Source: Pseudonocardia kunmingensis
GTDB taxonomy: Bacteria; Actinomycetota; Actinomycetes; Mycobacteriales; Pseudonocardiaceae
Assembly (NCBI RefSeq): GCF_006716445.1
Contig: NZ_VFPA01000001.1
Coordinates: 1,860,001-1,924,000 of the forward strand
DNA length: 64,000 bases
Reading direction: 5' to 3'
Each line of letters starts with the position of its first letter. Within the stretch, counting starts at the first letter, position 1. Of this stretch, positions 9,105 to 38,813 are shown one piece after another. A program made the translations under genes and the position numbers. Under the pieces are notes generated by a model. It saw only the letters and a program-made list of their open reading frames with translations, ran no database searches and was not told the DNA's origin.

Positions 9105-9179
9105 GCCCCCGTAGCTCAGGGGATAGAGCACCGCCCTCCGGAGGCGGGAGCGCAGGTTCGAATCCTGCCGGGGGCACCA
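9105..9179 (+). tRNA. tRNA-Arg (anticodon CCG)
   Basis: Complete cloverleaf. The acceptor GCCCCCG (9105-9111) pairs with CGGGGGC (9169-9175), followed by discriminator A and an encoded CCA. The D arm is GCTC...GAGC. The anticodon stem CCGCC/GGCGG holds the loop CTCCGGA with anticodon CCG at 9138-9140. The T arm contains TTCGAAT. It reads the CGG codon, abundant in this GC-rich genome. A TAGGGT box at 9085-9090 may be its -10. Confidence 0.97.
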
Positions 9180-10660: not shown

Positions 10661-11248
10661 TCATCGCCGCGTCTCGTACCGGGTCAGCACCGCGCCGCCG
10701 GGGAACGTCCGCATCTCCACCAGGTTCAGGTTCACCCAGCTGTCCAGCGCCGTGAAGAACGGCGTGCCGCCACCCACCAGGACCGGGTGGGTGACCAGGG
10801 CGTACTCGTCGATCAGCCCGGCCCGCATGGCCGCCCCGGCGAGCGTTGCGCCGCCGATGCCCATCGGGCCGCCGTCCTCGGCCTTGAGCCGGGTGATCTC
10901 GGCGACCGCGTCGCCGGTGACCAGGCGGGTGTTCCAGTCGACCTCGTCGATCGTCGAGGAGAACACCACCTTCGGCGTGTCCCGCCAGTTCCGCGCGAAC
11001 TCGATCTCCGCCGGGGTGGCGCCGGGCTGCTGGTCGCCGGTCGGCCAGTAGGAGCTCATCGACTCCCACAGCTTGCGCCCGTACAGCGACAGATCGCTCG
11101 CCAACTCGTGGTCGAGCCAGAACTGGAACAGCTCGTCGCTCGGCCCACCGTGCGCGCCGGAGTCCCCGGCGCTCCAGCCGATGTCGTCGCCGGGCGCGGC
11201 GATGTAGCCGTCCAGCGTCAGGTTCATGCCGAAGATCAGTTTCCGCAT
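10661..11248 (-). CDS. Dihydrofolate reductase-like (RibD C-terminal) protein
   Basis: 195-residue single-domain protein of the RibD_C/DHFR-like family, probably an NADPH-dependent reductase of unknown substrate. It has the typical start MRKLIFGMNLTLDGYIA, a central LYGRKLWESM (the family's GRxT-type turn) and the glycine-rich IGGATLAGAAMRAGLIDEY nucleotide site. The ATG has GGAGG at an ideal distance. It converges with the ECF sigma gene. Proteins of this family often lie next to ECF or AraC-type regulators, but no direct partner is evident. Confidence 0.85.
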   Translation of the reverse strand: MRKLIFGMNLTLDGYIAAPGDDIGWSAGDSGAHGGPSDELFQFWLDHELASDLSLYGRKLWESMSSYWPTGDQQPGATPAEIEFARNWRDTPKVVFSSTIDEVDWNTRLVTGDAVAEITRLKAEDGGPMGIGGATLAGAAMRAGLIDEYALVTHPVLVGGGTPFFTALDSWVNLNLVEMRTFPGGAVLTRYETRR

Positions 11249-11376
11249 CGTGCCCGCCTCCTGTGAGTCGATCTCACACGTACAGACGGTCGCGGCGTGG
11301 AAACCTGATCGGTGCGCGATCTGCGTCCGCAGCCGGTCCGGAACGGGATCCGCACGTCGGCTGGGCGTCTGCCGCC

Positions 11377-12123
11377 TCACATCCGGGATCTCAGCACGTC
11401 GAACTCGCAGCCGGGCGCGGACGGGTCGAAGCCGTGCTCGACCAGCCACCGGGCCGCCGTCAGGCTCCGCCACGACCACCACGCGCGGATCACGTCGAGG
11501 TCGACGTCGGTGCCGTAGCCGGCGACGACGTCGGCGAGGTGCTCCTCGTGCCCGAGCGTCAGGGTCGCGAGGTCGAACAGGGCGTCGCCCCGGCTCGCCT
11601 CGGACCAGTCGATCACGCCGGTGACCTCGTCACCGTCGACGAACACGTGGGTGATCTGCAGGTCGCCGTGGGTGAACACGGGTGTCCACGGCCGGAGCGC
11701 GGCCTCGGCGATGTGCCGGTTGCGCGTGACGAGGTCGATCGGGAGCACGCCGTTCGCGACGAGCCACTCGCATTCGACGTCGAGCCGCGCTGCGATCTCG
11801 TCGGGGCTCCGGCCGGGCCACGGGGGCAGTGGCGCGTCGTGCAGCGTCCGAACGGCGGCACCCACCGCGGCCCACGCCGCAGGCGACGCGGGCGACGGCT
11901 CGCCGAGGCGCCCGAGCGCCGTCCCCCGGACGGCGGCGAGCGCGAGCACGGGCGGCTGCCGCCACAGGACCTCCGGGGTCGGGATCGGCGCCATGGCCAT
12001 CGCCTCGACCTCGACGTCGGTGCGCGCCCGATCGGCGTCGACCTTCAGGAACACGTCGCCGACGCGCAGGGTCGCGCGCTCGTCGTGGGCGACGACGACC
12101 TCGACCTCCTCCACGTCGGCCAT
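11377..12123 (-). CDS. Aminoglycoside phosphotransferase (APH)-family protein
   Basis: About 248 residues of the APH/choline-kinase fold. An N-terminal nucleotide-binding lobe (LRVGDVFLKVDADRA, with the lysine that binds ATP) is followed by the catalytic loop FTHGDLQITHVFV (HGDLQ, catalytic Asp) and the metal-binding IDWSEASRG (DFG equivalent). The substrate is unknown; most chromosomal members are not resistance enzymes. Two starts are possible, GTG 12129 and ATG 12123; neither has a clear ribosome-binding site. It is divergent from the histidine kinase gene. Confidence 0.82.
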   Translation of the reverse strand: MADVEEVEVVVAHDERATLRVGDVFLKVDADRARTDVEVEAMAMAPIPTPEVLWRQPPVLALAAVRGTALGRLGEPSPASPAAWAAVGAAVRTLHDAPLPPWPGRSPDEIAARLDVECEWLVANGVLPIDLVTRNRHIAEAALRPWTPVFTHGDLQITHVFVDGDEVTGVIDWSEASRGDALFDLATLTLGHEEHLADVVAGYGTDVDLDVIRAWWSWRSLTAARWLVEHGFDPSAPGCEFDVLRSRM

Positions 12124-16028: not shown

Positions 16029-17240
16029 TCCGCGACGTTCGCGCCTGCCGGGGACGCTGCCTGCGGCGAGCACGGCGGCGAGCGCGGCCAGCCCGGCCAG
16101 TAGCGCGAACACCGCCGGGTAGCCGCCGAGGACCTCCGACAGCGCCGCGCCTGCCCAGGGTGCGAGCGCGGTGGCGACCGTGGCGGGTGCGGCGAGGATC
16201 CCGTTGAGCCTGCCGTAGTGGGCCGCACCCCAGCGGTCGCTGACGGCGGTGGCCTGCAGCAGCGTGAACACGCCACGGGCGGCTCCTGCGAGCATGGCCG
16301 CGGCGACGAGCAGCAGTGCCGGACCGGGGAGGACCGCGAGCAGCGCGGTCGCCGCCGCGGTGGCGCCGAGGATGAGCACGCCCCGCAGGCGGACACCGAC
16401 CCGGCGGACGAGGAGGCCGTAGCCGAGCCGGCCGAGCACCTGCCCGACGCCGCCGAGCCCCAGGGCCCAGGCCGCTCCGGTGGTCGTCATGCCGCGCTCG
16501 ATGAACAGGGGGACCTGGTTGACGACCACGGCGAACGCCGCGAACGTCCCGAGCGCGACCGCGGCGACCAGCAGGACGAAGGGGCGGCTGCGCGCGACCG
16601 CGCGGGGGTCGGTGTCGGTGTCCGCGGGGACCTCGGCGGGGTCGGGCCGCGGCCAGGGGCCGCGCAGGCCGAACAGGTGCGCAGGGACGGTGACCGCGGC
16701 GAGCACGACGGCGAGCACGAGGTAGGCCCCGCGCCATCCCAGTGGCTCGGCGAGCGCGGCGGTCAGCGGGGCGAAGATCGTGCTCGCGAGGCCGGCCAGC
16801 AGCGTGACGGTCGTGAGGGCGGTGACCCGGCGGGGACCCCACCAGCGGGTCAGCGCCGCGAACGCGGGCTGGTAGAGCACGCCCGCCATGGCGACGCCGG
16901 CCAGCGCCCAGGCCGCGAAGAACCAGGGCAGCGACGGCGCGGTGGCGATGCCGAGCACCGCGGGCACCGCGACGACCGATCCGGAGGTCATGACCAGCCG
17001 GGGTCCGAGCCGGTCGAGCCAGCGCCCGGCCGGGACCCCGACGAGGGCCGACACCACCAGGGCGAGGGAGAAGGCGGCGGTGATCGTGGTGATCGACCAG
17101 CCGGTGTCGGCGGCGATACCGGGAGCGAGCACCGGGAAGGCGTAGTAGAGCACGCCCCAGCTGGTGATCTCGGTGCCGCACAGCACGGCGAGCACGCGGC
17201 GGAGGCCGGCACGGGACAGCGCGCCGGGCTCCGTGGTCAT
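16023..17240 (-). CDS. MFS transporter
   Basis: 405 residues with 12 predicted membrane helices and a central cytoplasmic loop around residue 190-210 (Pro/Asp-rich). The first half has GRWLDRLGPR between helices 2 and 3, the MFS motif A. It resembles the CynX/NimT and oxalate-formate antiporter-like group, with SWGVLYYAFPVLAPGI in helix 1 seen in many monocarboxylate-type MFS proteins. Substrate unknown. The ATG at 17240 has GGAG close upstream. It is divergent from the flavin monooxygenase gene (145 bp), which may mark a linked function. Confidence 0.85.
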   Translation of the reverse strand: MTTEPGALSRAGLRRVLAVLCGTEITSWGVLYYAFPVLAPGIAADTGWSITTITAAFSLALVVSALVGVPAGRWLDRLGPRLVMTSGSVVAVPAVLGIATAPSLPWFFAAWALAGVAMAGVLYQPAFAALTRWWGPRRVTALTTVTLLAGLASTIFAPLTAALAEPLGWRGAYLVLAVVLAAVTVPAHLFGLRGPWPRPDPAEVPADTDTDPRAVARSRPFVLLVAAVALGTFAAFAVVVNQVPLFIERGMTTTGAAWALGLGGVGQVLGRLGYGLLVRRVGVRLRGVLILGATAAATALLAVLPGPALLLVAAAMLAGAARGVFTLLQATAVSDRWGAAHYGRLNGILAAPATVATALAPWAGAALSEVLGGYPAVFALLAGLAALAAVLAAGSVPGRRERRGS

Positions 17241-17385
17241 CGCTCCAGCGTGCAACAGCGGATCCACGGCGGCCCGCTCAGGGTGCGCCCCGCCGGCGCG
17301 ACCGGATGGTGCGCCACCGCGGCACTGGTGCGATCCCGGCGCCTGCGCCAAGGTGGACCTCTCTGGCCACGTCGGGGGGACGACC

Positions 17386-18630
17386 ATGAGGGTTGTGATC
17401 ATCGGCGCCGGTATCGGTGGGCTCACCACCGCGCTCCGGCTGCACCGAGCGGGCGTCGAGTGCACCGTCCACGAGCAGAGCACGCAGATCAGCGCGCTGG
17501 GCGTCGGGATCAACGTCCTGCCGCACGCGGTCCGCGACCTCGCGGAGCTCGGGCTGCTGGAGCGGTTGGACGCCGCGGCGGTCCGCACCAAGGAGCTGCT
17601 CTACCTGCACCGGCTGGGCCCGCAGATCATGGTCAAGCCGTGCGGGCTCGACGCGGGGTTCGCGCTGCCCCAGCTGTCCTTCCACCGCGGCCGGCTGCAG
17701 GCGGTGCTGCTGGCGGCGGTGCGGGAGCGGCTCGGGCCCGACGCCGTGCGCACGGGCCACCGGCTCGTCGGGTTCGACCAGGACGCGGACGGGGTGCGGG
17801 CCCGGTTCGCCGACCGGCACGGCGAGCCGCTGGGCGAGGCGCGCGGCGACGTGCTCGTCGCCGCGGACGGCATCCACTCGACGGTGCGCGCCACGCTGTT
17901 CCCCGACGAGGGAGCACCGCGCTGGAACGGCGTGATGATGTGGCGGGGGGCCACGGACTGGCCGGAGTACCTCACCGGCCGCTCGATGATCATCGCGGGT
18001 GGCACGGCCGCGAAGCTCGTGATCTACCCGATCGGCGAGGGGCGCGAGCCGGGCACGAAGCTGACGAACTGGGCGGTCTGCATCCTGACCGGCACGCCCG
18101 GCGACCCGCCGCCCGAACGCCAGGACTGGTCGCGGCGCGCGGAGGCGGCCGACGTGGAACCGCACATCGACCGGTTCCGGGTGCCGCACCTCGACCACGC
18201 CGCGCTGGTGCGGGCGACGCCCGAGTTCTTCGAGTTCCCGATGTGCGACCGCGACCCGCTCCCGCACTGGACGCGCGGACGCGTGACGCTGCTCGGCGAC
18301 GCCGCCCACCCGATGTACCCGATGGGCTCGAACGGCGCGGGCCAGGCGATCCTCGACGCCACCAGCATCGGGCGCCACCTGGCCGCGCACGCCGACCCGG
18401 CGGCGGCGCTGCAGGCCTACGAGGACGAGCGGCTCCCGGCCACCAGCGAGGTCGTGCTCCGCAACCGCATCGGCGGCCCGGAGGGCGTGATCGACGAGGT
18501 GGAACGCCGGGCCCCCGACGGCTTCGACCGGTTGGAGGACGTCATCGACGCCGCCGAGCTGGACGCCGTCGTCAGCGGCTACGCCCGGGCCGCCGGGGCG
18601 GACCGGAGCCAGGTGAACCGGACGCCCTGA
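17386..18630 (+). CDS. FAD-dependent aromatic-ring monooxygenase-like protein
   Basis: 414-residue class A flavoprotein hydroxylase (PHBH fold). The FAD-binding GAGIGG lies at residues 7-12, the DG motif in ADGIHSTVR near 165, and the second FAD motif GDAAHP about residue 305 followed by GSNGAGQAI. This organisation matches the salicylate hydroxylase/UbiH group and annotated 'flavin-dependent oxidoreductases'; the substrate cannot be told. The ATG has GGGGGA upstream. It converges with a cupin gene 12 bp away. Confidence 0.88.
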   Translation: MRVVIIGAGIGGLTTALRLHRAGVECTVHEQSTQISALGVGINVLPHAVRDLAELGLLERLDAAAVRTKELLYLHRLGPQIMVKPCGLDAGFALPQLSFHRGRLQAVLLAAVRERLGPDAVRTGHRLVGFDQDADGVRARFADRHGEPLGEARGDVLVAADGIHSTVRATLFPDEGAPRWNGVMMWRGATDWPEYLTGRSMIIAGGTAAKLVIYPIGEGREPGTKLTNWAVCILTGTPGDPPPERQDWSRRAEAADVEPHIDRFRVPHLDHAALVRATPEFFEFPMCDRDPLPHWTRGRVTLLGDAAHPMYPMGSNGAGQAILDATSIGRHLAAHADPAAALQAYEDERLPATSEVVLRNRIGGPEGVIDEVERRAPDGFDRLEDVIDAAELDAVVSGYARAAGADRSQVNRTP

Positions 18631-27666: not shown

Positions 27667-28317
27667 TCACCATCCCGTTCGCCCTCGCCCGCGCACGGAG
27701 TCCAGGTGCGGCAGGTCGTGGCCGAGCCGGTCGCGCTTCGCCGTCAGGTACCGGACGTTGTGCTCGTCGACCGGCTCCAGCAGCGGGACGCGCCCGGTCA
27801 CGGCGACCCCGTGCCCGGTCAGCCCGAGCACCTTGTCCGCGCTGTTGGACAGCAGCCGGACCGACGCGACGCCGAGGTGGCGCAGCACGCGCGCGGCCGG
27901 GCCGAAGTCGCGCACGTCCACGGGGAGGCCCAGCGCCGTGGCCGAGTCCACGGTGTCGAGCCCCTGCTCGTCCTGCAGCACGTGGGTGCGGATCTTGGCG
28001 ACGAGCCCGATCCCGCGCCCCTCGTGCCCGCGCAGGTACACGAGAACGCCGCAGCCCTCGTCCACGATCGCGTCGATCGCCGACCGCAGCTGGGCCCCGC
28101 ACTCGCAGCGCAACGCCCCGAACAGGTCGCCGGTCAGGCACTCGGAGTGCACGCGGACCAGCACGTCCTCGCGCCCCCGCGGGTCGCCGCGGACGAGGGC
28201 GAGGTGCTCGTGCCCGTCCACCGGGTCCCGGAACGCCACCGCCCGGAACGGCCCGTGCCGCGTCACCAGCTCCGACTCGGCGACGTCATCCAGCCCGCCG
28301 TCGTGCATGTCCTGCAT
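27667..28317 (-). CDS. GTP cyclohydrolase II paralogue with Tyr-to-His change
   Basis: 216 residues with the full GTP cyclohydrolase II fold. Zinc ligands C60, C71 and C73 lie in HSECLTGDLFGALRCECG; the GTP-handling GHEGRGIGL and the nucleophile region DVRDF (Arg136) are intact. In E. coli RibA the catalytic Tyr105 sits in KIRAYALQD; here the same segment is KIRTHVLQD, with His112. Substitution of that Tyr (Met in Streptomyces SCO6655) makes the enzyme stop at the N-formylated pyrimidine, from published work as I recall it. There is no RibB domain and no other riboflavin gene nearby, so this is likely not the housekeeping RibA. It is divergent from the creatininase gene by 59 bp. Confidence 0.88.
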   Translation of the reverse strand: MQDMHDGGLDDVAESELVTRHGPFRAVAFRDPVDGHEHLALVRGDPRGREDVLVRVHSECLTGDLFGALRCECGAQLRSAIDAIVDEGCGVLVYLRGHEGRGIGLVAKIRTHVLQDEQGLDTVDSATALGLPVDVRDFGPAARVLRHLGVASVRLLSNSADKVLGLTGHGVAVTGRVPLLEPVDEHNVRYLTAKRDRLGHDLPHLDSVRGRGRTGW

Positions 28318-28376
28318 CCCGTTCCCCTCTCGTCCCCGCTCGTCCCCGGCGGCGAACCGTGGGAAGGTCCCCGGTG

Positions 28377-29069
28377 ATGGACCTCCTCCCGGCCGACACC
28401 ACGCTCGACGAGCGCGAGCGCGGTGCCACCGTCGCGCTGCTGCCGATCGGCAGCGTCGAGCAGCACGGCCCGCACCTGCCGCTGACGACCGACACCCTCG
28501 TCGCGTGCACGCTCGCAGTCGAGCTCACCACCGCCTACGTCGTCCGCAGGCTGCCGCCCGTGACCATCTCCTGCTCCCACGAGCACGCGGCCTGGCCCGG
28601 CACCGTCAGCATCTCGGCCACCACGCTCGCCGCGGTCGTGCGCGACGTCGCCGCGTCCGTGCACCGGGCGGGCGTGACGTCGCTGGTGCTCGTCAACGGC
28701 CACGGCGGCAACTACGTGCTCGGCAACGTCGTGCAGGAGGCGAGCCTCGGGCCGCTGCGGATGGCGTTGTTCCCGGGCGAGGCCGACTGGGAGGACGCGC
28801 GCGCCGAGGCCGGGCTCGTCACGGCGGGACCGTCGGACATGCACGCCGGTGAGCTGGAGACCTCGATCCTGCTGCACGCGCATCCCCACCTGGTCAGGCC
28901 GGGGTTCGAACGGGCCGACGAGCTGGCGGACGACCGCAGGCACATGCTGAGCCGCGGGTTGCAGGCGTACACGGAGTCGGGTGTGGTGGGCCGCCCGTCG
29001 CTGGCGACCGCGGAGAAGGGACGTGCGGTGCTGGCGAGCCTGGTGCGCGGGTTCGCCGGCTACCTGTGA
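28377..29069 (+). CDS. Creatininase-family amidohydrolase (possible formamide hydrolase)
   Basis: 230 residues of the creatininase/ArfB/MftE fold. Metal ligands are visible: E28 and H30 in PIGSVEQHGPHLPL, D39 in TTDT, H109 in NGHGGN and Glu in MHAGELETS. The family includes creatininase, MftE and the archaeal deformylase ArfB, which removes the formyl group from the pyrimidine made by a cyclohydrolase. Since it starts 59 bp from a cyclohydrolase variant predicted to release exactly that formylated product, deformylation is the best guess. GGAAGG lies 9 nt before the ATG. Its last 176 nt are antisense to the flippase tail. Confidence 0.85.
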   Translation: MDLLPADTTLDERERGATVALLPIGSVEQHGPHLPLTTDTLVACTLAVELTTAYVVRRLPPVTISCSHEHAAWPGTVSISATTLAAVVRDVAASVHRAGVTSLVLVNGHGGNYVLGNVVQEASLGPLRMALFPGEADWEDARAEAGLVTAGPSDMHAGELETSILLHAHPHLVRPGFERADELADDRRHMLSRGLQAYTESGVVGRPSLATAEKGRAVLASLVRGFAGYL

Positions 29070-29952
29070 GCCTGCGCCGGGTCGCCAGGCGCAGCAGCAG
29101 CACCGCGGCACCGGGTGAGCACGCCACCAGGCCCAGCACGCCGTAGGCGACGGCCGCGGAGACGCCCTGCGCGGCACCGAGACCGACCGCGCCGAAACCG
29201 ACGGCGGCCACCGCCTCCCGCGGGCCCCACCCGCCCACGTTCAGCGGCAGGGCCATCACCAGCAACGCCAGCACCAGCAACGGAAGCAGCTCGACCACCG
29301 GCGCGGACGTGCCGGCCGCGCGGGCGGCCACGACGAACGTGGCGAGGTAGCCGCCGAGCGCCACCACGGACAGCCCGAGGACAGCGGGCCACGTGCGGCG
29401 CAGCGCGCGCAGGTCCGCCGCCAGCGGGCGCAGGCGGGAGCGCAGGGCCCAGCCGAGCACCGGCGCCGCCACGAGCACCGCGACGCCGAACCACCCCGCT
29501 GCGGGCACCGCGTCGCCCGCGACGCCCAGCAGCGCGGGTTGCGCCGCCAGTACGCCGGCGGCCACGACCACCAGCACCAGCAGGCCGACCAGCCGCTCGA
29601 GGGCCACCGCCCGCACCCCGCGCCCGACGTCGCCCGCCCGCCTGCCGTGCCCGAGCGCCCGGTGCACGTCGCCGAGGACGCCCGCGGGCAGCACCGCGTT
29701 CAGGAACATCGCCTGGTAGCAGTCGGCGACCGCCGCGGGGAGCGGCAGCCGCAGGCCGAGGCCGCGCGCGACCAGGCACCACCGCCAGGCGCTGCAGACG
29801 GTCGTCACGACGCCGATCCCGAGCGCGGCCAGCACCGGCCCGGCCTCCAGCGCCGCGAGCCCGTCGGCCACCGCGTCCGGCCCCGACCACCACACCAGGA
29901 CGGCGACGATCGCCACCCCCGCCAGTGGCCGCAGCACACCACCCACCGTCAT
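28894..29952 (-). CDS. UPF0104 / lysylphosphatidylglycerol-synthase-type flippase domain protein
   Basis: 352 residues with about 7-8 membrane helices over residues 1-295, matching the LPG_synthase_TM (UPF0104, AglD-like) family; typical are the motifs ALERLVGLLVLVVV and NVGGWGPREAVAAVGFG. Such proteins move or modify lipid-linked molecules in the membrane. It is coupled to the methyltransferase by ATGA. The last ~57 residues are Pro, Arg and Ser-rich and lie antisense to the 3' part of the creatininase gene; this tail is not part of the domain and may be tolerated read-through. Confidence 0.8.
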   Translation of the reverse strand: MTVGGVLRPLAGVAIVAVLVWWSGPDAVADGLAALEAGPVLAALGIGVVTTVCSAWRWCLVARGLGLRLPLPAAVADCYQAMFLNAVLPAGVLGDVHRALGHGRRAGDVGRGVRAVALERLVGLLVLVVVAAGVLAAQPALLGVAGDAVPAAGWFGVAVLVAAPVLGWALRSRLRPLAADLRALRRTWPAVLGLSVVALGGYLATFVVAARAAGTSAPVVELLPLLVLALLVMALPLNVGGWGPREAVAAVGFGAVGLGAAQGVSAAVAYGVLGLVACSPGAAVLLLRLATRRRLTGSRRTRAPGSPAPHVPSPRSPATGGPPHPTPCTPATRGSACACGRPPARRPVRTPA

Positions 29953-30761
29953 GCCCCGCGTCCCGGCAGGGCGAGGAGATCCGCGTGCCCGACGACGACG
30001 CGCAGCTCCCCGCGGGCCGCGGCGTCGAGCCTGCGGCGCAGGTACGCGTCGGTCTCGGTGGCCAGCGACGGGCTGTGCGCGCACGCCGCCTCGACCCAGC
30101 CGCGCAGCCACTCCTCCACCAGGGCGCCGTCGCCCGCTCCGAGCCGCCACGGGCTCGGCGCGCGCACGACCCGGGCGCCGAGGCGCCGGAACGCGGCGGC
30201 GGCCGCGGGCGGGGCGTCCGGCCCGAGGAGCCGCCGTCCCCCGACCGTGCGGCGCTGGTGGGCGTCGAAGGCGGCGGCGAACGCGGCGTCGAGCGGGTCC
30301 GCCGGGGTGAGCAGCACGCTGCCGGTGACCGACAGGGTCAGCAGGGCCGGGCACGCCGCCGCCGTGCACGCGGCGGCGAGGCGCTCCACCTCGTCGACGG
30401 TCAGCAGGTCCAGCAGGGCCGATGCGGTGACGAGGTCGGTGCCGGCGAGGCGGGCGGCGTCGAGCTCGGTGAGGTCACCGGGGCAGGGCTCCGCGGTCAC
30501 GTGCGCGGGCAGGCCGGTCACGGCGCGGTCGAGCAGCGCGGGGTCGCGGTCGTGCAGCACCCAGTGCTGCGGGCCGGGCAGCCGACCGGCGAGCCAGCGC
30601 CCCATCGACCCGGTGCCGCAGCCCAGGTCGCGCACCACGAGCCTGCCCGCGGGCAGGTGCGCGCGCGCCTGGTCGGCGAGCTCGACGGCGCGGGCGGCGG
30701 CGTCGGCGGGCTCGCGCAGCGCGAGCCAGTCCGCCCCGACCGGCGCGTCCGGCCTGCTCAT
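29949..30761 (-). CDS. SAM-dependent methyltransferase
   Basis: 270 residues, class I methyltransferase fold. The SAM loop is VRDLGCGTGSMGRWLAG (about residues 44-60), the acidic end of strand 2 is in VLHDRDPALLD, and motif IV lies in ADVVTASALLDLL-like TDLVTASALLDLL. It shares 4-nt overlaps with the glycosyltransferase upstream and the flippase downstream, so it belongs to the PTPS-homologue operon. AGGAG lies before the ATG. The substrate is unknown, presumably an intermediate of the locus product. Confidence 0.85.
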   Translation of the reverse strand: MSRPDAPVGADWLALREPADAAARAVELADQARAHLPAGRLVVRDLGCGTGSMGRWLAGRLPGPQHWVLHDRDPALLDRAVTGLPAHVTAEPCPGDLTELDAARLAGTDLVTASALLDLLTVDEVERLAAACTAAACPALLTLSVTGSVLLTPADPLDAAFAAAFDAHQRRTVGGRRLLGPDAPPAAAAAFRRLGARVVRAPSPWRLGAGDGALVEEWLRGWVEAACAHSPSLATETDAYLRRRLDAAARGELRVVVGHADLLALPGRGA

Positions 30762-31861
30762 GCCCCGCTCCTGCGGGCCGTGAGCGGAGACGAGTGCTCC
30801 AGCACCCGTATCCACTCACGAGCCGCTACGTCCCAGCCGGGCAGCTGGGGGCGGCGGGCGCGGGCGGCGTCCCGCGCCGCCGTGCGCAGGCCCGGCTCGT
30901 CGAGCCAGCGGCGCAGCGCGGCCGCGAGCGCCGCGACGTCCGCGGGTGCCACCAGCAGTCCCGGCACGGTGCCCCCGGGTGCGCGGCCGAGCGTCTCGGG
31001 CACCCCGCCGACGGCGCACGCCAGCACCGGGATCCCCCGCGCCAGCGCCTCGGTGACGACCATGCCGTAGGTCTCCGCGCGGGAGGGCAGCACCAGCAGG
31101 TCGGAGGCGGCGTACGCGGCGTCGAGCGCCGGACCGGTGAGCGGGCCGGTGAGTTCCACGCGGTCGTCCAGCCCGTGGCGGCGCACGAGGGCCCGCACGG
31201 CGTCGACGTGCGCCGCGTCGCGGGTGAGCGGGCCGGCGAGCCGGCACGTCCAGCTCCGGTCGGCGAGCCGGGCGAGGGCGTCCACCAGCAGGTCCTGGCC
31301 CTTCGTCGGGGTGAGCGACCCGACGCAGAGCAGCCTGCCGCCGTCCTCGTCGGGGACCGCCGAGGGGGCGGGCTCGACGCCGGGCGGGACGACGTGCACC
31401 CGCTCGGCGGACAGCCCGTGCACCTGCGCGAGCCGCCGCGCCGTCCACGGGCTGGTCGCCACGACCGCGGCCGCGGCGTCCAGCGCGGTCCGTTCGCGGG
31501 CGCTGCGGTCGGCGGCCGTGGCGGGGGCGAGACCGGCCTCGTCGCCGAGGGGCAGGTGCACGAGCACCACGAGCCGCAACCGCCCGGCATGGCGCGCGAG
31601 GACCTCGGGGACGGCGCAGCCCACCAGGCCGTCGAGCACCACGGCGGCGCCCCCGGGCACCGCGGCCAGGCGCCGGTCCAGCTCGGCGCGGGCGGCGTCG
31701 TCGGGCTCCGGCCACGTCCCGGCCACGGCGATCTCGTGCACCGGGCGGCCCGCGGCGACCAGGCCCGCGCAGACGCGGCGGTCGTAGGCGTTGCCGCCGC
31801 TGGGGCGGGCGGGGTCGTCGACGTCGCCGGGCAGGACGACGTGCACCGCGGCGCCGGTCAC
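30758..31861 (-). CDS. Family-4-type glycosyltransferase
   Basis: 367 residues, GT-B fold. The N-terminal acceptor domain includes [14 protein letters not shown] (donor-side glycine loop) and the C-terminal donor domain [17 protein letters not shown] and [19 protein letters not shown], the E(x7)E retaining GT4 motif. It transfers a sugar from a nucleotide donor to an unknown acceptor. The GTG start overlaps the PTPS-homologue stop and its own stop overlaps the methyltransferase start. Residues after about 344 ([19 protein letters not shown]) are encoded by the 40-bp palindrome and its 3' flank, so a repeat has become the C-terminus. Confidence 0.88.
30780..30819. repeat. 40-bp palindromic repeat, copy 3 (inside the glycosyltransferase gene)
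   Basis: Begins GTGAGCGGAGACGAGTGC and ends GCACCCGTATCCACTCAC. It lies wholly within the 3' end of the glycosyltransferase reading frame, which stays open through it, 19 nt before the methyltransferase ATG. The left arm is more diverged than the right, which may reflect selection or age. In the mRNA it could separate translation levels of the two genes. Confidence 0.8.
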
Positions 31862-32256
31862 AGGGTGCGCTCGTAGCTCGCCCAGGCGACGTGCGACTCG
31901 TGCAGGGTGACGGCGATCGCGGCGATCCCGCGGGCGCCCTCACCGAGCGCGCCCGCGTGCACCTGCTCGGCCAGCCGGTCCGCGATGTGCCGGGCGAGGA
32001 ACTCGGTGGAGGTGTTGACGCCGGCGAAGGCCGGTTCGTCGTCGAGGTTGCGGTAGTTCAGCCCGGCCAGCACCGCGCCGAGCTGCTGCGTGGCCAGCCC
32101 GATGTCGACCACGATCCCGTCGGCGTCGAGATCGGGACGGCGGAACGTCGCGTCCACCACGAAGGTGGCGCCGTGCAGGCGCTGCGCCGGGCCGAAGACC
32201 TCGCCGCGGAAGCTGTGGGCGACCATCACGTGATCGCGGACGGTGATGCTGAACAA
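31858..32256 (-). CDS. 6-pyruvoyl-tetrahydropterin synthase (QueD/PTPS) homologue lacking catalytic residues
   Basis: 132-residue T-fold protein. Alignment by eye to QueD: His14 is kept, but the segment AQRLHGATF stands where CGRLHGHSF is normal, so the catalytic Cys (A24) and one zinc His (A30) are gone; LNYRNLDD replaces LDHRxLND, losing the Asp-His pair (N67, Y68). The pterin-binding Glu in LHESHVAW remains. It therefore probably binds a pterin or pyrimidine without the normal PTPS chemistry, as reported for Streptomyces SCO6650. The start is TTG with AAGGGAG 5 nt upstream. It is coupled to the glycosyltransferase by GTGA. Confidence 0.85.
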
Positions 32257-32339
32257 GATCGCTCCCTTGCACGCGCGGGCTCCGTCCTACCGCACACGCG
32301 CGCCACGCCCGGACGGTTCACCGCCGCGCCGACCGCGCC

Positions 32340-33317
32340 TCACGCGTCGTCGTAGCGCACCCGCACGCAGAGCGCGGGCGGCTCACCCGCCGCCAGCCGG
32401 GGCAGCAGGGCGGGAAGCTCGTCGAACGCGTGCTCGCCCCCGACCAGCGCGTCGAAGCGGGGGTCGGCGAGCAGCCGCAGGGCCAGCGCCATGCGACCGG
32501 CGTAGCCGCGGCTCGCCCGGCGCGGCGACACCGTGCCCACCTGGCTGCTGCGCACCGCCAGCCGCCGCGGGTGGAAGGCCTCCCCGAGCGGGAGGCTCAC
32601 CCGCCGGTCGCCGTACCAGGACAGCTCGATGACCTCGCCCTCGGCGGCCAGCAGCTCCAGCGACCGCGCCAACCCGGCCTCGGTGGCGCTGGCGTGCACC
32701 ACGAGGTCGCAGTCCCCCAGTGCGCCGTCGGGGCTCGCGAACCCGACGCCGAGCGCCGCCGCCACGCCGGCCCGGGCCGGGTCGACGTCCACCAGCTCGA
32801 CGCGCGCGCCGGGCAGGCCGGCCAGCACGGCGGCGACGCTGCACCCGACCAACCCCGCGCCCACGACCGCGATCCGGTCGCCGACGAGCGGCGCCGCGTC
32901 CCACACCGCGTTGACGGCGGTCTCGACGGTGCCTGCGAGCACCGCGCGTCCCGGGGGCACGTCGTCCGGAACCGGCGTGACCGCCGCCGCCGGCACGACG
33001 AAGCGCGTCTGGTGCGGGTGCAGGCAGAACACGGTGCGCCCGCGCAGCTCGGCGGGCCCGTGTTCGACGACGCCGACCGCGAGGTACCCGTACTTCACCG
33101 GTGCCGGGAACTCGCCCTCCTGGAACGGGGCGCGCATGGTCGCGTACTGGCTGCGCGGCACCGCGCCGGAGAAGACGAGGGTCTCGGTGCCCCGGCTCAC
33201 CCCGGTGTGGAGCGTGCGCACGACGACGTCGCCGTCGCCGGGCTCGGGCAACGCGACCTCCCGGATCTCGCCCTCGCCGGGGGCGCGGAGCCAGAACGCA
33301 CGGGCGGTGTGGGGCAT
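32340..33317 (-). CDS. Medium-chain dehydrogenase/reductase without zinc-ligand cysteines
   Basis: 325 residues of the alcohol-dehydrogenase superfamily. The N-terminal catalytic domain has GVSRGTETLVFSG where zinc enzymes have a Cys, and no structural-zinc Cys cluster is present. The Rossmann part shows VVGAGLVGCSVAAVLAG and the acidic end VDVDP. It resembles the BchC/sorbitol-type 'zinc-binding dehydrogenase' branch seen with PTPS homologues. NAD(P)H-linked oxidation of an alcohol, or reduction of a ketone, on the locus intermediate is likely. GGAGG precedes the ATG at 33317. It is first of a five-gene minus-strand unit and divergent from the CDP-alcohol gene. Confidence 0.82.
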   Translation of the reverse strand: MPHTARAFWLRAPGEGEIREVALPEPGDGDVVVRTLHTGVSRGTETLVFSGAVPRSQYATMRAPFQEGEFPAPVKYGYLAVGVVEHGPAELRGRTVFCLHPHQTRFVVPAAAVTPVPDDVPPGRAVLAGTVETAVNAVWDAAPLVGDRIAVVGAGLVGCSVAAVLAGLPGARVELVDVDPARAGVAAALGVGFASPDGALGDCDLVVHASATEAGLARSLELLAAEGEVIELSWYGDRRVSLPLGEAFHPRRLAVRSSQVGTVSPRRASRGYAGRMALALRLLADPRFDALVGGEHAFDELPALLPRLAAGEPPALCVRVRYDDA

Positions 33318-33378
33318 CTCGTTCCTCCGGGGTGAACTCCCCGGCCCGCGCGGACGTGTCGAGGAGGTGGACCGTGCA

Positions 33379-34122
33379 GTGGAGACCGGCACCCGCACCC
33401 TAGAGAAGGGGTGCCCGGACCAGGCCGCGGCCGCGAGCGCTCAGCTGCTGCTGCTCGCCGGCCTCGCGGGCGCGTTCGAGGTGGGGTTGCTCGGCGTCCT
33501 CGTCGGGGTCGGGTACGCCGCGGCGCTGCTCGCGATGCTGTCCGCGGCGATGGTCCGGGCGGGCCGGCCGCGGCTCGGACCCGCCGACGTGGTCACCCTG
33601 ACCAGGGCGCTGCTCGTCGGCGGCGTGACGGCCGTGGTCGTCGACGGGCTGGTCCGCGGGGCGGCGGCGGTGCCCGCCCTGGTGGGGCTCGCGGCGGTGG
33701 CGCTGGTCCTCGACGCCGTCGACGGGCAGGTCGCCCGGCGCACCGGCACGGTCTCGGCGCTGGGCGCCCGCTTCGACATGGAGGTCGACGCCTTCCTCAT
33801 CCTCGTGCTGAGCGTCCACGTCGCGGGTGTCGTCGGGCCGTGGGCTCTCGCGATCGGCGCCATGCGCTACGCGTTCGTCGCCGCCGGGTGGGCGTGGCCG
33901 TGGCTGCGCGGGCCGCTGCCCCCCAGCTACGCGGGCAAGACGGTGGCGGCGCTGCAGGGCGTGGTGCTCGTCGTCGTGAGCGCGCAGGTGCTGCCCCACG
34001 GGCTCGCGGTCGCGCTGGTGACCGTCGCGCTGGCGCTGCTGTGCTGGTCGTTCGGGCGGGACGTGCGGCGGCTGTGGGTGGCCTCGCACCGCGTGCCGGC
34101 CCCGCGGATGCCGTCCGACTGA
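33379..34122 (+). CDS. CDP-alcohol phosphotransferase family membrane protein
   Basis: 247 residues with six or so membrane helices. The family catalytic motif is complete: DG-x2-AR-x8-G-x3-D-x3-D, seen from DGQVAR to MEVD about residues 115-137. Such enzymes swap CMP on a CDP-alcohol for another alcohol to make phospholipids or phosphodiester-linked polyols. In this locus it may attach the product to a lipid or polyol. The GTG at 33379 is preferred (GGAGG 11 nt upstream); a GTG at 33367 is also possible. It is divergent from the dehydrogenase by 61 bp. Confidence 0.85.
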   Translation: METGTRTLEKGCPDQAAAASAQLLLLAGLAGAFEVGLLGVLVGVGYAAALLAMLSAAMVRAGRPRLGPADVVTLTRALLVGGVTAVVVDGLVRGAAAVPALVGLAAVALVLDAVDGQVARRTGTVSALGARFDMEVDAFLILVLSVHVAGVVGPWALAIGAMRYAFVAAGWAWPWLRGPLPPSYAGKTVAALQGVVLVVVSAQVLPHGLAVALVTVALALLCWSFGRDVRRLWVASHRVPAPRMPSD

Positions 34123-36744: not shown

Positions 36745-37224
36745 TCAGCGCGCGCGGGTCGGGGGGCGGCGGGTGGCGGGCGTGCCGTCGGGGCGGAACC
36801 GTCGGCGGAGCGAGAACGCGCGGGCGGTCGGCCCGTAGGTGCGCAGGTGGCGCAACCGGCGCAGGGCGTCGTCCACCGCGGGGACGGTGCCCGCCGGCAG
36901 CCACCACAGCGCCGTGGACGGCTGCGGCGTCGCGGCGAACCACCGCGACCTCCGCTTCAGGAAGGCGGCGTGCGCGGTGCGGTAGGTGAACGCGTGCAGG
37001 GCCTCGTAGTCGCGCCACACCGTCAGGTTGACGAATACCGGCCCGCCCTCGCCGGGCTGGACGCAGATCCCGTGGCCGTCGTCGGTGCGCAGCTGCCAGA
37101 CGAAGCCGGGGCTCGCGGCGGCAAGGCAGTGGATCGAGTCGATCCCCGCGGCGAACTCCCGCATGGACGGATCGTCGACCGGCGCGCGCAGCCGGGCGAC
37201 GTTCACCTGCGCGAGGTGCTGCAC
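36745..37224 (-). CDS. DUF3291 protein
   Basis: About 159 residues of the DUF3291 family, small dimeric alpha-beta barrel-like proteins of unknown function. Conserved segments: HLAQVNVARLRAPVDDP at the start, VNLTVWRDYEALHAFTY in the middle and ALWWLPAGTVPAVDDALRR near the end; these match the family's Trp and His positions. The GTG at 37224 has no ribosome-binding site but has a TACGCT box seven nt upstream, so it is taken as leaderless; a GTG at 37272 would add 16 residues. Confidence 0.78.
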   Translation of the reverse strand: MQHLAQVNVARLRAPVDDPSMREFAAGIDSIHCLAAASPGFVWQLRTDDGHGICVQPGEGGPVFVNLTVWRDYEALHAFTYRTAHAAFLKRRSRWFAATPQPSTALWWLPAGTVPAVDDALRRLRHLRTYGPTARAFSLRRRFRPDGTPATRRPPTRAR

Positions 37225-37231
37225 CGGCGCC

Positions 37232-37237
37232 AGCGTA
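37232..37237 (-). promoter_or_regulatory. -10 box of a leaderless DUF3291 promoter
   Basis: TACGCT on the minus strand, seven nt before the GTG at 37224. Confidence 0.4.
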
Positions 37238-37294
37238 GGGGGGCGGGCGCGGCCGTGACCGCTGACCCGCACCCCGCGAACCCGACCCTCGCGG

Positions 37295-37774
37295 TCAGGA
37301 CCACAGCCCGATCGCCAGCGCGGCGGTCGCGGCCGTGCAGGCCGCCGCGCGGACGTGGTTCCACGCGGTCCAGCGGGCGAGGTAGCCGGTCCAGACCTCG
37401 GCGCCCTGCGCGCTCGCCGGGTCCGCGGCGTCCAGCCGGTTGTTCATCGGCACGTTCACCGCCATCGTCAGCACGATGCTGCCGACGAGGTACAGCAGCG
37501 CCCCGGCGACGATCCAGGCGGTGCCTGCCCGGCCGCTGAACGGCGCACCGACGGCCAGCACCAGGCACAGGAGCGCCGTGCCGCCGAAGACGAGGCCGAA
37601 CAGCGGGTTGAGGATCGTGCGGTTGATCTGCTGCATCGCCGCGGCGCCGTCGGCCGGGGACAGCCTGCGCAGCCCCGGCATCACCGCGGTCGAGAAGGCG
37701 AAGAACACCCCTGCCATCACGCCGCAGCCGACGGCACCGAGCAGCGCGACGGCGGGCAGGACCGAGTCGATCAT
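37295..37774 (-). CDS. DUF1772 membrane protein
   Basis: 159 residues with four membrane helices, typical of DUF1772 (anthrone-oxygenase-like). Visible are GCGVMAGVFFAFSTAVMPGL in helix 1, the MQQINRTILNPLF segment and NVPMNNRLDAADP before the last helices, all conserved in the family. Function unproven; some fungal relatives oxidise anthrones. It overlaps the stop of the NmrA-like gene by 4 nt (ATGA), so the two form an operon divergent from an AraC regulator. Confidence 0.85.
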   Translation of the reverse strand: MIDSVLPAVALLGAVGCGVMAGVFFAFSTAVMPGLRRLSPADGAAAMQQINRTILNPLFGLVFGGTALLCLVLAVGAPFSGRAGTAWIVAGALLYLVGSIVLTMAVNVPMNNRLDAADPASAQGAEVWTGYLARWTAWNHVRAAACTAATAALAIGLWS

Positions 37775-38664
37775 GACGTCTCCTGGCGATCGGGGAGGAG
37801 CGTGGACACCACGTCCTCGAACCGGGTGGGGGTCGTCGTGGCGGGGGTGCGCCCCTCGTGCGGGGTGATGGCGCCGGCCGAGAGCGCGTGCCCCATCTCG
37901 ACGTGCAGCGCCGCGGTGTCCGGGGAGAACCCGCCCTGGACCAGCGCGCCGATCATCTCCTCGTCGGGGAGCCGGACGTACTGCAGGTCCGGGTTGCCGA
38001 TCGCCGCGCCCAGGATCCGGGTGGCCTCGGTGTAGGTGAGGTCGCGCGGGCCGAGCAGCTCGCGGACCGCGACACCCGTCCAGTCCCGGGAGCGCAGCGC
38101 CGCGGCGGCGACCTCGGCGATGTCCCGGGTGGCGATCATCGGCACCGCCACGTCGGGGTCGACCACGTCGGCGTTGACGCCCATGGCCTCCACGAGGTCG
38201 ACCGCCGCGACGATGCTCTCGAAGAACAGCGTCGGCCGCAGGAACAGCACGTCGACGCCGTCCAGCGCGCGCAGGCGCTGCTCCTGGGGGTACAGGCTCG
38301 CGGCGATGAACCCGGTGCCGTCCGGCAGGTCGGCCCCGAGGCTGCTCAGGGCCACCACCGAACGCACGCCCGAGTCCCGGATGGCCGTGACGATCGCCTC
38401 GCCCAGCCGGGCCTGCTCGGCCCGGAAGTCCGGCGCCGTCGGGCTGTAGGGCAGCAGCGTGTGCACGGCGTCGGCCCCGCGGAAGGCGCGGGTCAGGAAG
38501 TCCGCGTCGCCTGCGTCACCCGCGACGACCTCGGCCCCGTCGGCGGCGAGCCGGGCGAGCGCTTCGGGGTTGCGGCCGACGGCGCGCACCTGCTCACCCG
38601 CCGCCGACAGCCGGCGGACGATCTTGCTGCCGACCTGGCCGGTCGCTCCCATCACGGTGATCAT
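37771..38664 (-). CDS. NAD(P)-binding NmrA-like reductase
   Basis: 297 residues, atypical short-chain dehydrogenase fold. The nucleotide loop is MGATGQVGSKIV (GxxGxxG), followed by AVGRNP (selects NADP-type ribose) and the NmrA-like DVDVLFLRPTLFFES. The active-site Tyr/Lys pair is not obvious, as in NmrA/HSCARG redox sensors and many quinone-reductase-like relatives. GAGGAGA lies before the ATG. It is first gene of an operon with DUF1772, divergent from AraC. Confidence 0.85.
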   Translation of the reverse strand: MITVMGATGQVGSKIVRRLSAAGEQVRAVGRNPEALARLAADGAEVVAGDAGDADFLTRAFRGADAVHTLLPYSPTAPDFRAEQARLGEAIVTAIRDSGVRSVVALSSLGADLPDGTGFIAASLYPQEQRLRALDGVDVLFLRPTLFFESIVAAVDLVEAMGVNADVVDPDVAVPMIATRDIAEVAAAALRSRDWTGVAVRELLGPRDLTYTEATRILGAAIGNPDLQYVRLPDEEMIGALVQGGFSPDTAALHVEMGHALSAGAITPHEGRTPATTTPTRFEDVVSTLLPDRQETS

Positions 38665-38724
38665 CGGGTTCTCCTCGGGGTCGTGGTCGTCCTTGCTCGA
38701 CGTCCAGGCTGCCGGGGCGGAACT

Positions 38725-38757
38725 GGACTTCCCATCGCCGGGAGTCGCACTTCCATG
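38725..38757. promoter_or_regulatory. Candidate AraC operator, two direct half-sites
   Basis: GGACTTCCCAT (38725) and GCACTTCCATG (38747) are near-identical direct repeats starting 22 bp apart, about two helical turns. They lie in the 149-bp gap between the AraC regulator and the NmrA-like operon. Direct half-sites on one face of the helix are what AraC-type proteins usually bind. Confidence 0.35.
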
Positions 38758-38813
38758 CTCGTTCGTCCAGGTCTGGTGGACGCTCGGTCCTCCGGCCCGG
38801 CACACTGACCGTC

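Follow-up and report, generated by a model that had tools for sequence, protein, structure and literature searches.

The locus at positions 27,667 to 34,122 of a 64,000-nucleotide stretch of the Pseudonocardia kunmingensis genome (contig NZ_VFPA01000001.1, positions 1,860,001 to 1,924,000; hereafter, the window) carries eight genes whose families recur together in distantly related bacteria. We propose, with evenly balanced confidence, that this locus is the core of an undescribed pathway in which GTP is opened in two separate steps and converted to a pterin-like core, which is then decorated, joined to a lipid and flipped. The gene set, a split first step, and a T-fold protein predicted to have lost the catalytic residues of 6-pyruvoyltetrahydropterin synthase (PTPS) while retaining its anchor residue are the parts of this model supported by sequence comparison. 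A previous reading of the DNA from its letters alone (the sequence-only reading) had assigned eight genes to such a pathway; all of them were located as described, each by a family match (Table 1). Its suggestion of an undescribed pathway from GTP gains support from the conserved set, of which no description was found in the open literature (subscription papers lay mostly outside the scope of that search).

Single enzymes of the set have been studied, one of them with a crystal structure (3d7j), without a product being found in that literature, and the same holds for the joint product of the Streptomyces coelicolor proteins SCO6655 and SCO6650. We rate the set as new because membership in a riboflavin operon or in the PTPS/QueD, ArfB or MftE families was not borne out and because no description was found; the individual components belong to known families, and a paper behind a subscription might alter this assessment. 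Conservation across phyla, together with two additional members, makes the question of a GTP-derived product testable. Should a lipid-linked pterin or ribityl-pyrimidine prove to be the product, many filamentous actinomycetes would possess a membrane cofactor or envelope component of a new class.

Conservation of the gene set

A search of named genomes with a T-fold profile yielded at least 591 relatives among 596 candidate stretches. The best 80, mostly from Streptomyces, Micromonospora, Actinomadura, Amycolatopsis and Pseudonocardia, were kept with flanks of up to 10 kb. The dehydrogenase was present in all 80, the glycosyltransferase and the methyltransferase in 78 each, the flippase-like protein and the CDP-alcohol enzyme in 75 each, the cyclohydrolase in 69 and the creatininase in 57; each of 11 flanking window genes tested occurred in at most nine. 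Addition of 40 regions from other matches (some distant or weak), 20 Pseudonocardia regions, locus L251 and ten plasmid regions gave 152 regions including the window. These were reduced to 147 distinct loci, two of them from one genome (G067), by removal of two duplicates recognized by an identical 300-base dehydrogenase stretch (L222 of L089, L228 of L071) and of three regions without a T-fold match at 1e-8 (L175–L177). Three fetched places with weak T-fold matches only (E 4e-4 to 8e-4) contained neither the T-fold nor the dehydrogenase gene and were left out.

Among the 147 loci the dehydrogenase was found in 147, the glycosyltransferase in 143, the flippase-like protein in 129, the CDP-alcohol enzyme in 127, the methyltransferase in 124, the cyclohydrolase II in 108 and the creatininase in 75, and 92 loci contained all seven families other than the creatininase. 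The presence of the dehydrogenase in every locus found through the T-fold gene excludes a chance association. The two genes share a strand in 144 loci, and in 141 the dehydrogenase closely precedes the T-fold gene. The remaining genes differ in order and strand among relatives, which argues for selection on the gene set. The sequence-only reading had made its case depend on co-occurrence beyond close relatives, and the set is indeed kept in several actinobacterial families and in Alpha- and Gammaproteobacteria. Peteryoungia and Agrobacterium share the order sulfatase, flippase-like protein, CDP-alcohol enzyme, RibA, dehydrogenase, T-fold protein, GT4 glycosyltransferase, methyltransferase, RibD and cytochrome b, and the same order was found with tblastn in Rhizobium rhizoryzae; the Peteryoungia cluster additionally contains an FkbM methyltransferase. 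Shorter versions occur in Thiodictyon, Methylosinus, Microbacterium and two Rhodobacterales.

With respect to distribution, the T-fold protein was detected in 38 of 60 relatives and, at E 1e-3, in 47 of 296 genomes of the class (four of these matches being weak); the class-level searches with T-fold, RibD_C, LtaP-like and creatininase queries apparently used the same draw of 296 genomes. The T-fold profile matched 54 of 396 genomes of the phylum, where the weaker matches are probably ordinary QueD-type proteins.

Three side observations concern the surroundings of these clusters. Transposase genes flank the Thiodictyon plasmid cluster on both sides (L213:6518-7597 and 17054-18396), which suggests transfer. 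In 13 of the 147 loci, in both Pseudonocardia and Alphaproteobacteria, the cluster contains or adjoins an FkbM-type methyltransferase gene (L063, L089, L179, L214, L215, L223–L226, L230, L233, L237 and L240). A b-type cytochrome gene adjoins the RibD gene in the clusters of Thiodictyon and three Rhizobiaceae (L213, L214, L217 and L220; 4 of 147 loci by tblastn).

A probable split first step

The head of the pathway, that is, GTP opening by a cyclohydrolase II variant followed by a separate deformylation, is well supported as far as sequence comparison can predict it. The cyclohydrolase of the window has the GTP cyclohydrolase II fold (PF00925, 206.3 bits at a cut-off of 23.3), and the zinc-type motif C.TGD..C.C with its three zinc cysteines is present in 107 of the 108 cyclohydrolase loci. 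In an alignment to 2bz0, His112 of the window protein takes the place of the canonical Tyr105 of Escherichia coli RibA, a tyrosine which we take to drive deformylation in cyclohydrolase II. Spoonamore et al. in 2006 reportedly found that SCO6655 has a methionine at this site (Met120) and stops at the formylaminopyrimidine nucleotide (FAPy), and that exchange of the residue switches the outcome; only methionine and tyrosine are said to have been tried, and we infer that the histidine of the window acts like methionine.

The identity of this switch residue follows the presence of the creatininase gene. In all 75 loci with a creatininase it is a residue other than tyrosine (M 49, H 21, L 3, C 1, Q 1), with methionine in the Streptomyces loci, and in 32 of the 33 cyclohydrolase loci without a creatininase it is tyrosine, the exception being the decayed cyclohydrolase domain of L240. 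None of the 147 loci has a creatininase without a cyclohydrolase. This pairing supports the model that the creatininase removes the formyl group left by the mutated cyclohydrolase, and the residue pattern thus supports a probable route from GTP via formylaminopyrimidine to diaminopyrimidine. The GTP-opening role and the ArfB-like role which the sequence-only reading had assigned to the two proteins are both backed by these residue data. In L240 itself, the cyclohydrolase and RibD_C domains share an open frame; inspected by eye, the cyclohydrolase half lacks the key motifs, and the RibD_C half is still 92% identical.

The creatininase carries the motifs HGGN and HAGE in 75 of 75 loci and E.HGP.LP..TD in 63 of 75. 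(The first motif patterns used for the creatininase, 16 of 75, and the cyclohydrolase, 52 of 108, were too strict; the counts reported here come from looser patterns.) Its best NCBIfam match is the mycofactocin protein MftE (TIGR03964), at 131.8 bits below the cut-off of 172, and it scores 32.4 bits against ArfB (NF033501; cut-off 180); by these scores neither identity applies. A bacterial enzyme of the creatininase type that acts as a FAPy formamidase is described, in an excerpt of PMC9478397, as BrbF of Sinorhizobium and relatives. Relatives of the creatininase also occur outside the cluster in nine loci (L242–L250; 54–66% identity) with no T-fold gene nearby. These include a second copy in a cluster-bearing genome, and a strong T-fold match is lacking in seven of the genomes.

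The source genome (9.1 Mb) also encodes a Tyr-type cyclohydrolase elsewhere (L001) and a third, divergent cyclohydrolase II-like protein (L003; G000:C2:1371819-1372253) whose active-site stretches appear altered by eye.

A RibD-type reductase

The first of the two additional members, which the sequence-only reading had not foreseen, is a RibD-type reductase, a riboflavin-type enzyme that appears to belong to the wider set. RibD_C-type reductases were found in 59 of the 147 loci. They are in the cluster or fused to one of its genes at 32 of the 33 cyclohydrolase loci without a creatininase, compared with 7 of the 75 creatininase loci and 20 of the 39 loci with neither gene; Pfam revealed a fusion to the cyclohydrolase in L155 and L165, and reading of the frame did so in L071. 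The source genome encodes a member of the cluster-type subfamily elsewhere (G000:C1:1228411-1229079) that is 56–63% identical to three unfused and 31–34% identical to two fused cluster copies. At the level of the class, the subfamily (E up to 1e-38) is present in 35 of 42 genomes with a strong T-fold match.

The T-fold protein and the dehydrogenase

The protein of solved structure closest to the T-fold protein is SCO6650 (3d7j, E 2.9e-70), which agrees with the relationship named in the sequence-only reading and whose name in the PDB is still "uncharacterized protein". Which positions of the fold are catalytic, zinc-binding or anchoring we take from their presumed roles in the family. On comparison with 2g64, the catalytic cysteine is replaced by Ala24, the Asp-His pair by Asn67-Tyr68 and the third zinc histidine by Ala30. 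Over the 147 loci, the cysteine occurs in none, Ala24 in 146, Ala30 in 145 and Tyr68 in 142; the third zinc histidine is replaced in 146 and the histidine of the pair in 144, and the aspartate is kept in five. The first two zinc histidines are kept in 146 and 147 loci, respectively, and the anchor residue Glu120 in all 147, as expected for a putative pterin-binding T-fold. These counts confirm the lack of PTPS catalytic residues claimed in the sequence-only reading. The score against the QueD model is 33.1 bits (cut-off 89.25), and on this score and the catalytic loss a PTPS/QueD identity was set aside. With a mean column identity of 85% (18 rows), the protein is very conserved, though by its residues it is predicted not to be a PTPS enzyme. 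A divergent T-fold relative (L155:2011-2457) lies beside the same kind of dehydrogenase and has a zinc-type HSHDY stretch, unlike nearly all the others.

The dehydrogenase has the motif S[RK]GTE in 145 of the 147 loci, and the zinc-type motif G.C[GA].D was found in the open frames of three; the window enzyme thus differs from zinc-dependent medium-chain alcohol dehydrogenases in lacking the catalytic zinc cysteine. The pair formed by this enzyme and the T-fold protein is invariant, and the chemistry of this middle part of the pathway is a proposal.

Glycosyltransferase, methyltransferase and lipid-type enzymes

None of the NCBIfam matches listed for the glycosyltransferase (25 of 31) reaches its cut-off. 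The methyltransferase is 33–41% identical to members of the proteobacterial clusters, with which it shares a W-L-x-L-R motif, and is recognisably of the same putative family in actinobacterial and proteobacterial clusters. The complete motif of the CDP-alcohol phosphotransferase family, D..DG..AR..G...D...D, is present in 126 of the 127 loci that have this enzyme, including the window.

The second additional member that was not foreseen is an LtaP-like protein of the sulfatase superfamily, which likewise seems to belong to the wider set. It was found in 48 of the 147 loci, with none in the window, and in 15 of these 48 a single open frame spans both it and the CDP-alcohol enzyme. Its profile has a single PDB match up to E 0.1, the lipoteichoic acid primase LtaP (4uop, E 3.9e-7); Pfam gave no match for the LtaP-like part of two such proteins. 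The motifs ES[YD]G, GDHQP and SH.PW are present in 46, 44 and 46 of the 48. At the genome level, the protein occurs in 29 of the 42 class genomes with a strong T-fold match and in two of the 253 others (Fisher p 9e-28, the window genome being left out; the genomes are related, so that this p value overstates the association). One of these two exceptional genomes has a weak T-fold match (G108) and the other none (G295). In the genus that includes the Streptomyces contig G247 (code g43), all 15 genomes with the T-fold gene encode the LtaP-like protein, megabases away in some (2.99 versus 7.47 Mb in G076) and adjacent in others (G229), and the source genome has two copies on another contig. The strongest indication that the lipid-type enzymes act in one process with the T-fold protein is the co-occurrence of the two genes even when they are unlinked. 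The lipid linkage of the product, which the sequence-only reading had based on the flippase-like and CDP-alcohol genes, is motivated, as an inferred feature, by family membership, gene content and co-occurrence.

Proposed pathway

Based on these data, we propose that the GTP cyclohydrolase II lacking the deformylating tyrosine would convert GTP to FAPy, which the creatininase-family hydrolase would then deformylate to 2,5-diamino-6-ribosylamino-4(3H)-pyrimidinone 5'-phosphate; where a cluster has no such hydrolase, both steps would fall to a Tyr-type cyclohydrolase. A RibD-type reductase, which for the window would be supplied by the gene elsewhere in the source genome, may then reduce the ribosyl to a ribityl chain. 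Because no deaminase was seen in the gene set, the intermediate would keep its 2-amino-4-oxo ring, which in a pterin is the portion held by the anchor glutamate of the T-fold. Conversion of this intermediate to a pterin-like core, presumably by ring closure, might be the work of the two proteins present in every locus, the BchC-like dehydrogenase and the T-fold protein, and the glycosyltransferase and methyltransferase would decorate the core in an order we leave tentative. The CDP-alcohol phosphotransferase would link the product through a phosphodiester to a lipid whose probable source is CDP-diacylglycerol, and the flippase-like protein would carry it across the membrane, where an LtaP-like enzyme could transfer or trim the head group for a final use that is likewise conjectural.

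Several points weigh against this model. In a tree of the cyclohydrolases, all rows with a non-Tyr residue and a creatininase fall on one side of a single branch (support 78), so that the switch correlation may reflect one co-inherited pair, perhaps of one origin. A tree of the dehydrogenases requires five changes on the best tree, of which well supported branches force only one, and an independent-pairs test on it is underpowered (five pairs over all branches, one over well supported branches); 33 Met-type rows, mostly from Streptomyces, were omitted from both trees, and L155 also from that of the cyclohydrolases. Neither cyclohydrolase nor creatininase is present in 39 of the 147 loci, where a housekeeping enzyme may serve or the link to GTP may not be universal. 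No cyclohydrolase was found within the 7–16 kb fetched around the nine creatininase relatives outside the cluster, which therefore give no independent support for a deformylase role. Of the 253 class genomes lacking a strong T-fold match, 41 still encode the RibD_C subfamily, for which reason a role for it in the pathway of the window itself is put forward conditionally, and few creatininase loci (7 of 75) have such an enzyme nearby. The LtaP-like protein is absent from 13 of the 42 strong T-fold genomes, and the lipid substrate of the CDP-alcohol enzyme is not readable from sequence. To our knowledge, no metabolite of the pathway has been described, and we know of no assay that has found activity for any enzyme acting after the cyclohydrolase.

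It is tempting to speculate further that the cluster provides a route to pterins that is independent of GTP cyclohydrolase I and leads to a lipid-anchored pterin redox cofactor on the outer face of the membrane, although we regard this extension as doubtful. The RibD-type reductase would reduce C1' and the dehydrogenase would oxidize C2' to a 2'-ketone, the same as that made by cyclohydrolase I through an Amadori rearrangement. Free of PTPS chemistry, the T-fold protein might guide ring closure to a dihydroneopterin-type core, which would then receive its glycosyl and methyl groups, be attached to a phospholipid and be flipped; the b-type cytochrome encoded beside RibD in Rhizobiaceae and Thiodictyon could be the electron partner of the anchored pterin. 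Counting against this idea, the source genome also encodes cyclohydrolase I. Such a route would therefore be specialised rather than a replacement, and the cluster would not be the sole way to a pterin.

Alternative explanations

The product might instead be a soluble glycosylated and methylated pterin or diaminopyrimidine nucleoside, with the CDP-alcohol and flippase-like proteins making or exporting another compound or acting on a non-lipid CDP-alcohol. We consider this possible, if less probable than the lipid-linked product, since the lipid side rests on family membership, and some loci do without a flippase-like or a CDP-alcohol gene; two Rhodobacterales loci with the T-fold, dehydrogenase, methyltransferase and RibD genes show no CDP-alcohol enzyme in 18 kb. 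It does not readily account for the retention of the CDP-alcohol enzyme in 127 of the 147 loci, for the 15 of 48 loci in which it and the LtaP-like protein share a frame, or for the very strong genome-level co-occurrence of the latter with the T-fold gene. The match to 4uop and the shared frame would suit a teichoic-acid-like envelope polymer, in which the CDP-alcohol and LtaP-like enzymes build or prime a polyol-phosphate chain, with the moiety derived from GTP serving as a minor cap or a regulator. This appears very improbable to us: the genes found in every locus are those of the dehydrogenase and the T-fold protein, not of the lipid enzymes; identity to the window is 65–82% for the dehydrogenase (80 relatives) versus 54–73% for the CDP-alcohol enzyme (the 75 having it); and the set is found also in Gram-negative Rhizobiaceae and Thiodictyon. 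The lipoteichoic acid pathway proper was considered and set aside.

Alternatively, the head of the locus could be an accessory or regulated supply of riboflavin or F420, adjoined by an unrelated envelope-glycolipid cluster. The precedent of BrbF in Sinorhizobium (in the excerpt of PMC9478397), the riboflavin-type nature of the RibD enzyme and the tabulation of SCO6655 under riboflavin metabolism (in an excerpt of PMC2853524) speak for it. Yet a scan of 48 window proteins showed no deaminase, 3,4-dihydroxy-2-butanone 4-phosphate synthase, lumazine synthase or riboflavin synthase, nor were these seen in the eight relatives with gene tables, which were incomplete and lacking for two further regions. 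A Tyr-type cyclohydrolase is available elsewhere in the genome (L001), riboflavin synthesis has no place for the pair of dehydrogenase and T-fold protein conserved in 147 of 147 loci, and the set turns up again, among other neighbours, in Actinomycetes and in Alpha- and Gammaproteobacteria. We therefore think this explanation unlikely. A riboflavin operon as such, with RibB, RibD deaminase, RibH and RibE beside RibA, was rejected on the 48 window proteins and the eight annotated relatives. SCO6655 is also listed, in the excerpt of PMC2853524, among genes that are anticorrelated with predicted flux, the majority of them upregulated in stationary phase according to the authors, a pattern that would suit a developmental or secondary role.

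Features of the window

Coordinates of the eight genes are given in Table 1. As stated in the sequence-only reading, the genes from the dehydrogenase to the flippase-like protein form one minus-strand run of five whose last four are linked by overlaps of 4 nt, which the gene coordinates place at three junctions (PTPS/glycosyltransferase, glycosyltransferase/methyltransferase and methyltransferase/flippase). The cyclohydrolase and creatininase genes are divergent, as are the CDP-alcohol and dehydrogenase genes, and the frame of the flippase-like protein overruns the 3' end of the convergent creatininase gene by 175 nt. Some gene calls are crude codon-bias predictions with antisense errors. An open reading frame of 529 amino acids (32533-34122) overstates the CDP-alcohol gene: the domain occupies its last third, and the upstream part is antisense to the dehydrogenase.

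Table 1. Genes of the locus, with positions in the window and family matches
Product	Position	Strand	Match
GTP cyclohydrolase II variant (GTP_cyclohydro2)	27667..28317	-	Pfam PF00925, E 2.9e-61
Creatininase-family amidohydrolase, proposed FAPy (AFRPP) deformylase	28377..29069 (scanned from 28359)	+	PF02633, 7.2e-63
Flippase-like membrane protein (LPG_synthase_TM)	28894..29952	-	PF03706, 1.2e-28
Class I S-adenosylmethionine (SAM) methyltransferase	29949..30761 (scanned from 30815)	-	PF13649, 5.5e-8
GT4-family glycosyltransferase	30758..31861	-	PF00534, 1.6e-30
PTPS/QueD-like T-fold protein, SCO6650 homologue	31858..32256	-	PTPS family by Pfam, 2.6e-23
BchC-like medium-chain dehydrogenase	32340..33317	-	best NCBIfam TIGR01202, 6.7e-13, under its cut-off
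CDP-alcohol phosphotransferase (CDP-OH_P_transf)	~33367..34122 (start approximate)	+	PF01066, 3.9e-12, complete family motif

The claim that no riboflavin, folate or deazapurine genes are nearby held for the 48 window proteins scanned save for one RibD_C-family (dihydrofolate reductase-like) protein at 10661-11482 (66 bits), 16 kb from the cluster. This protein is one of 23 RibD_C matches in the source genome and is not of the cluster type, as cluster-type RibD_C queries do not match it at 1e-8. Elsewhere in the window lie a tRNA-Arg (ccg) gene at 9105-9179 and, at 36745-38805, a run of DUF3291, anthrone oxygenase-like and NmrA-like genes beside an AraC-type regulator, which is not conserved with the cluster.

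Comparison with known systems

ArfA, ArfB and ArfC stand at the head of riboflavin and F420 synthesis in archaea. The route proposed here from sequence would resemble theirs in the conversion of GTP to FAPy, the deformylation by a creatininase-family enzyme and the reduction of RibD_C type. By contrast, the opening enzyme is a mutated GTP cyclohydrolase II and not GTP cyclohydrolase III, the hydrolase falls under the ArfB cut-off, and the other genes of the cluster are not riboflavin or F420 genes. BrbF, as far as it is described in the excerpt of PMC9478397, is an enzyme of the creatininase family, likewise bacterial, for the step that is proposed here; it feeds riboflavin, whereas the creatininase studied here accompanies a cyclohydrolase (75 of 75) and the pair of T-fold protein and dehydrogenase.

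The T-fold protein belongs to the PTPS family by Pfam and shares the anchor glutamate with 6-pyruvoyltetrahydropterin and 6-carboxytetrahydropterin synthases; unlike these, it has the catalytic cysteine replaced in 147 of 147 loci and the third zinc histidine in 146. The likeness to the lipoteichoic acid enzymes LtaP and LtaS with CDP-alcohol phosphotransferases lies in the match of the associated sulfatase-superfamily protein to LtaP, but this protein sits outside the window. SCO6655 and SCO6650 of S. coelicolor resemble the locus through the match of the T-fold protein to 3d7j and the methionine at the switch site of the Streptomyces loci. These two have reportedly been studied one protein at a time; our analysis goes beyond them in working out the wider conserved set and its added members.

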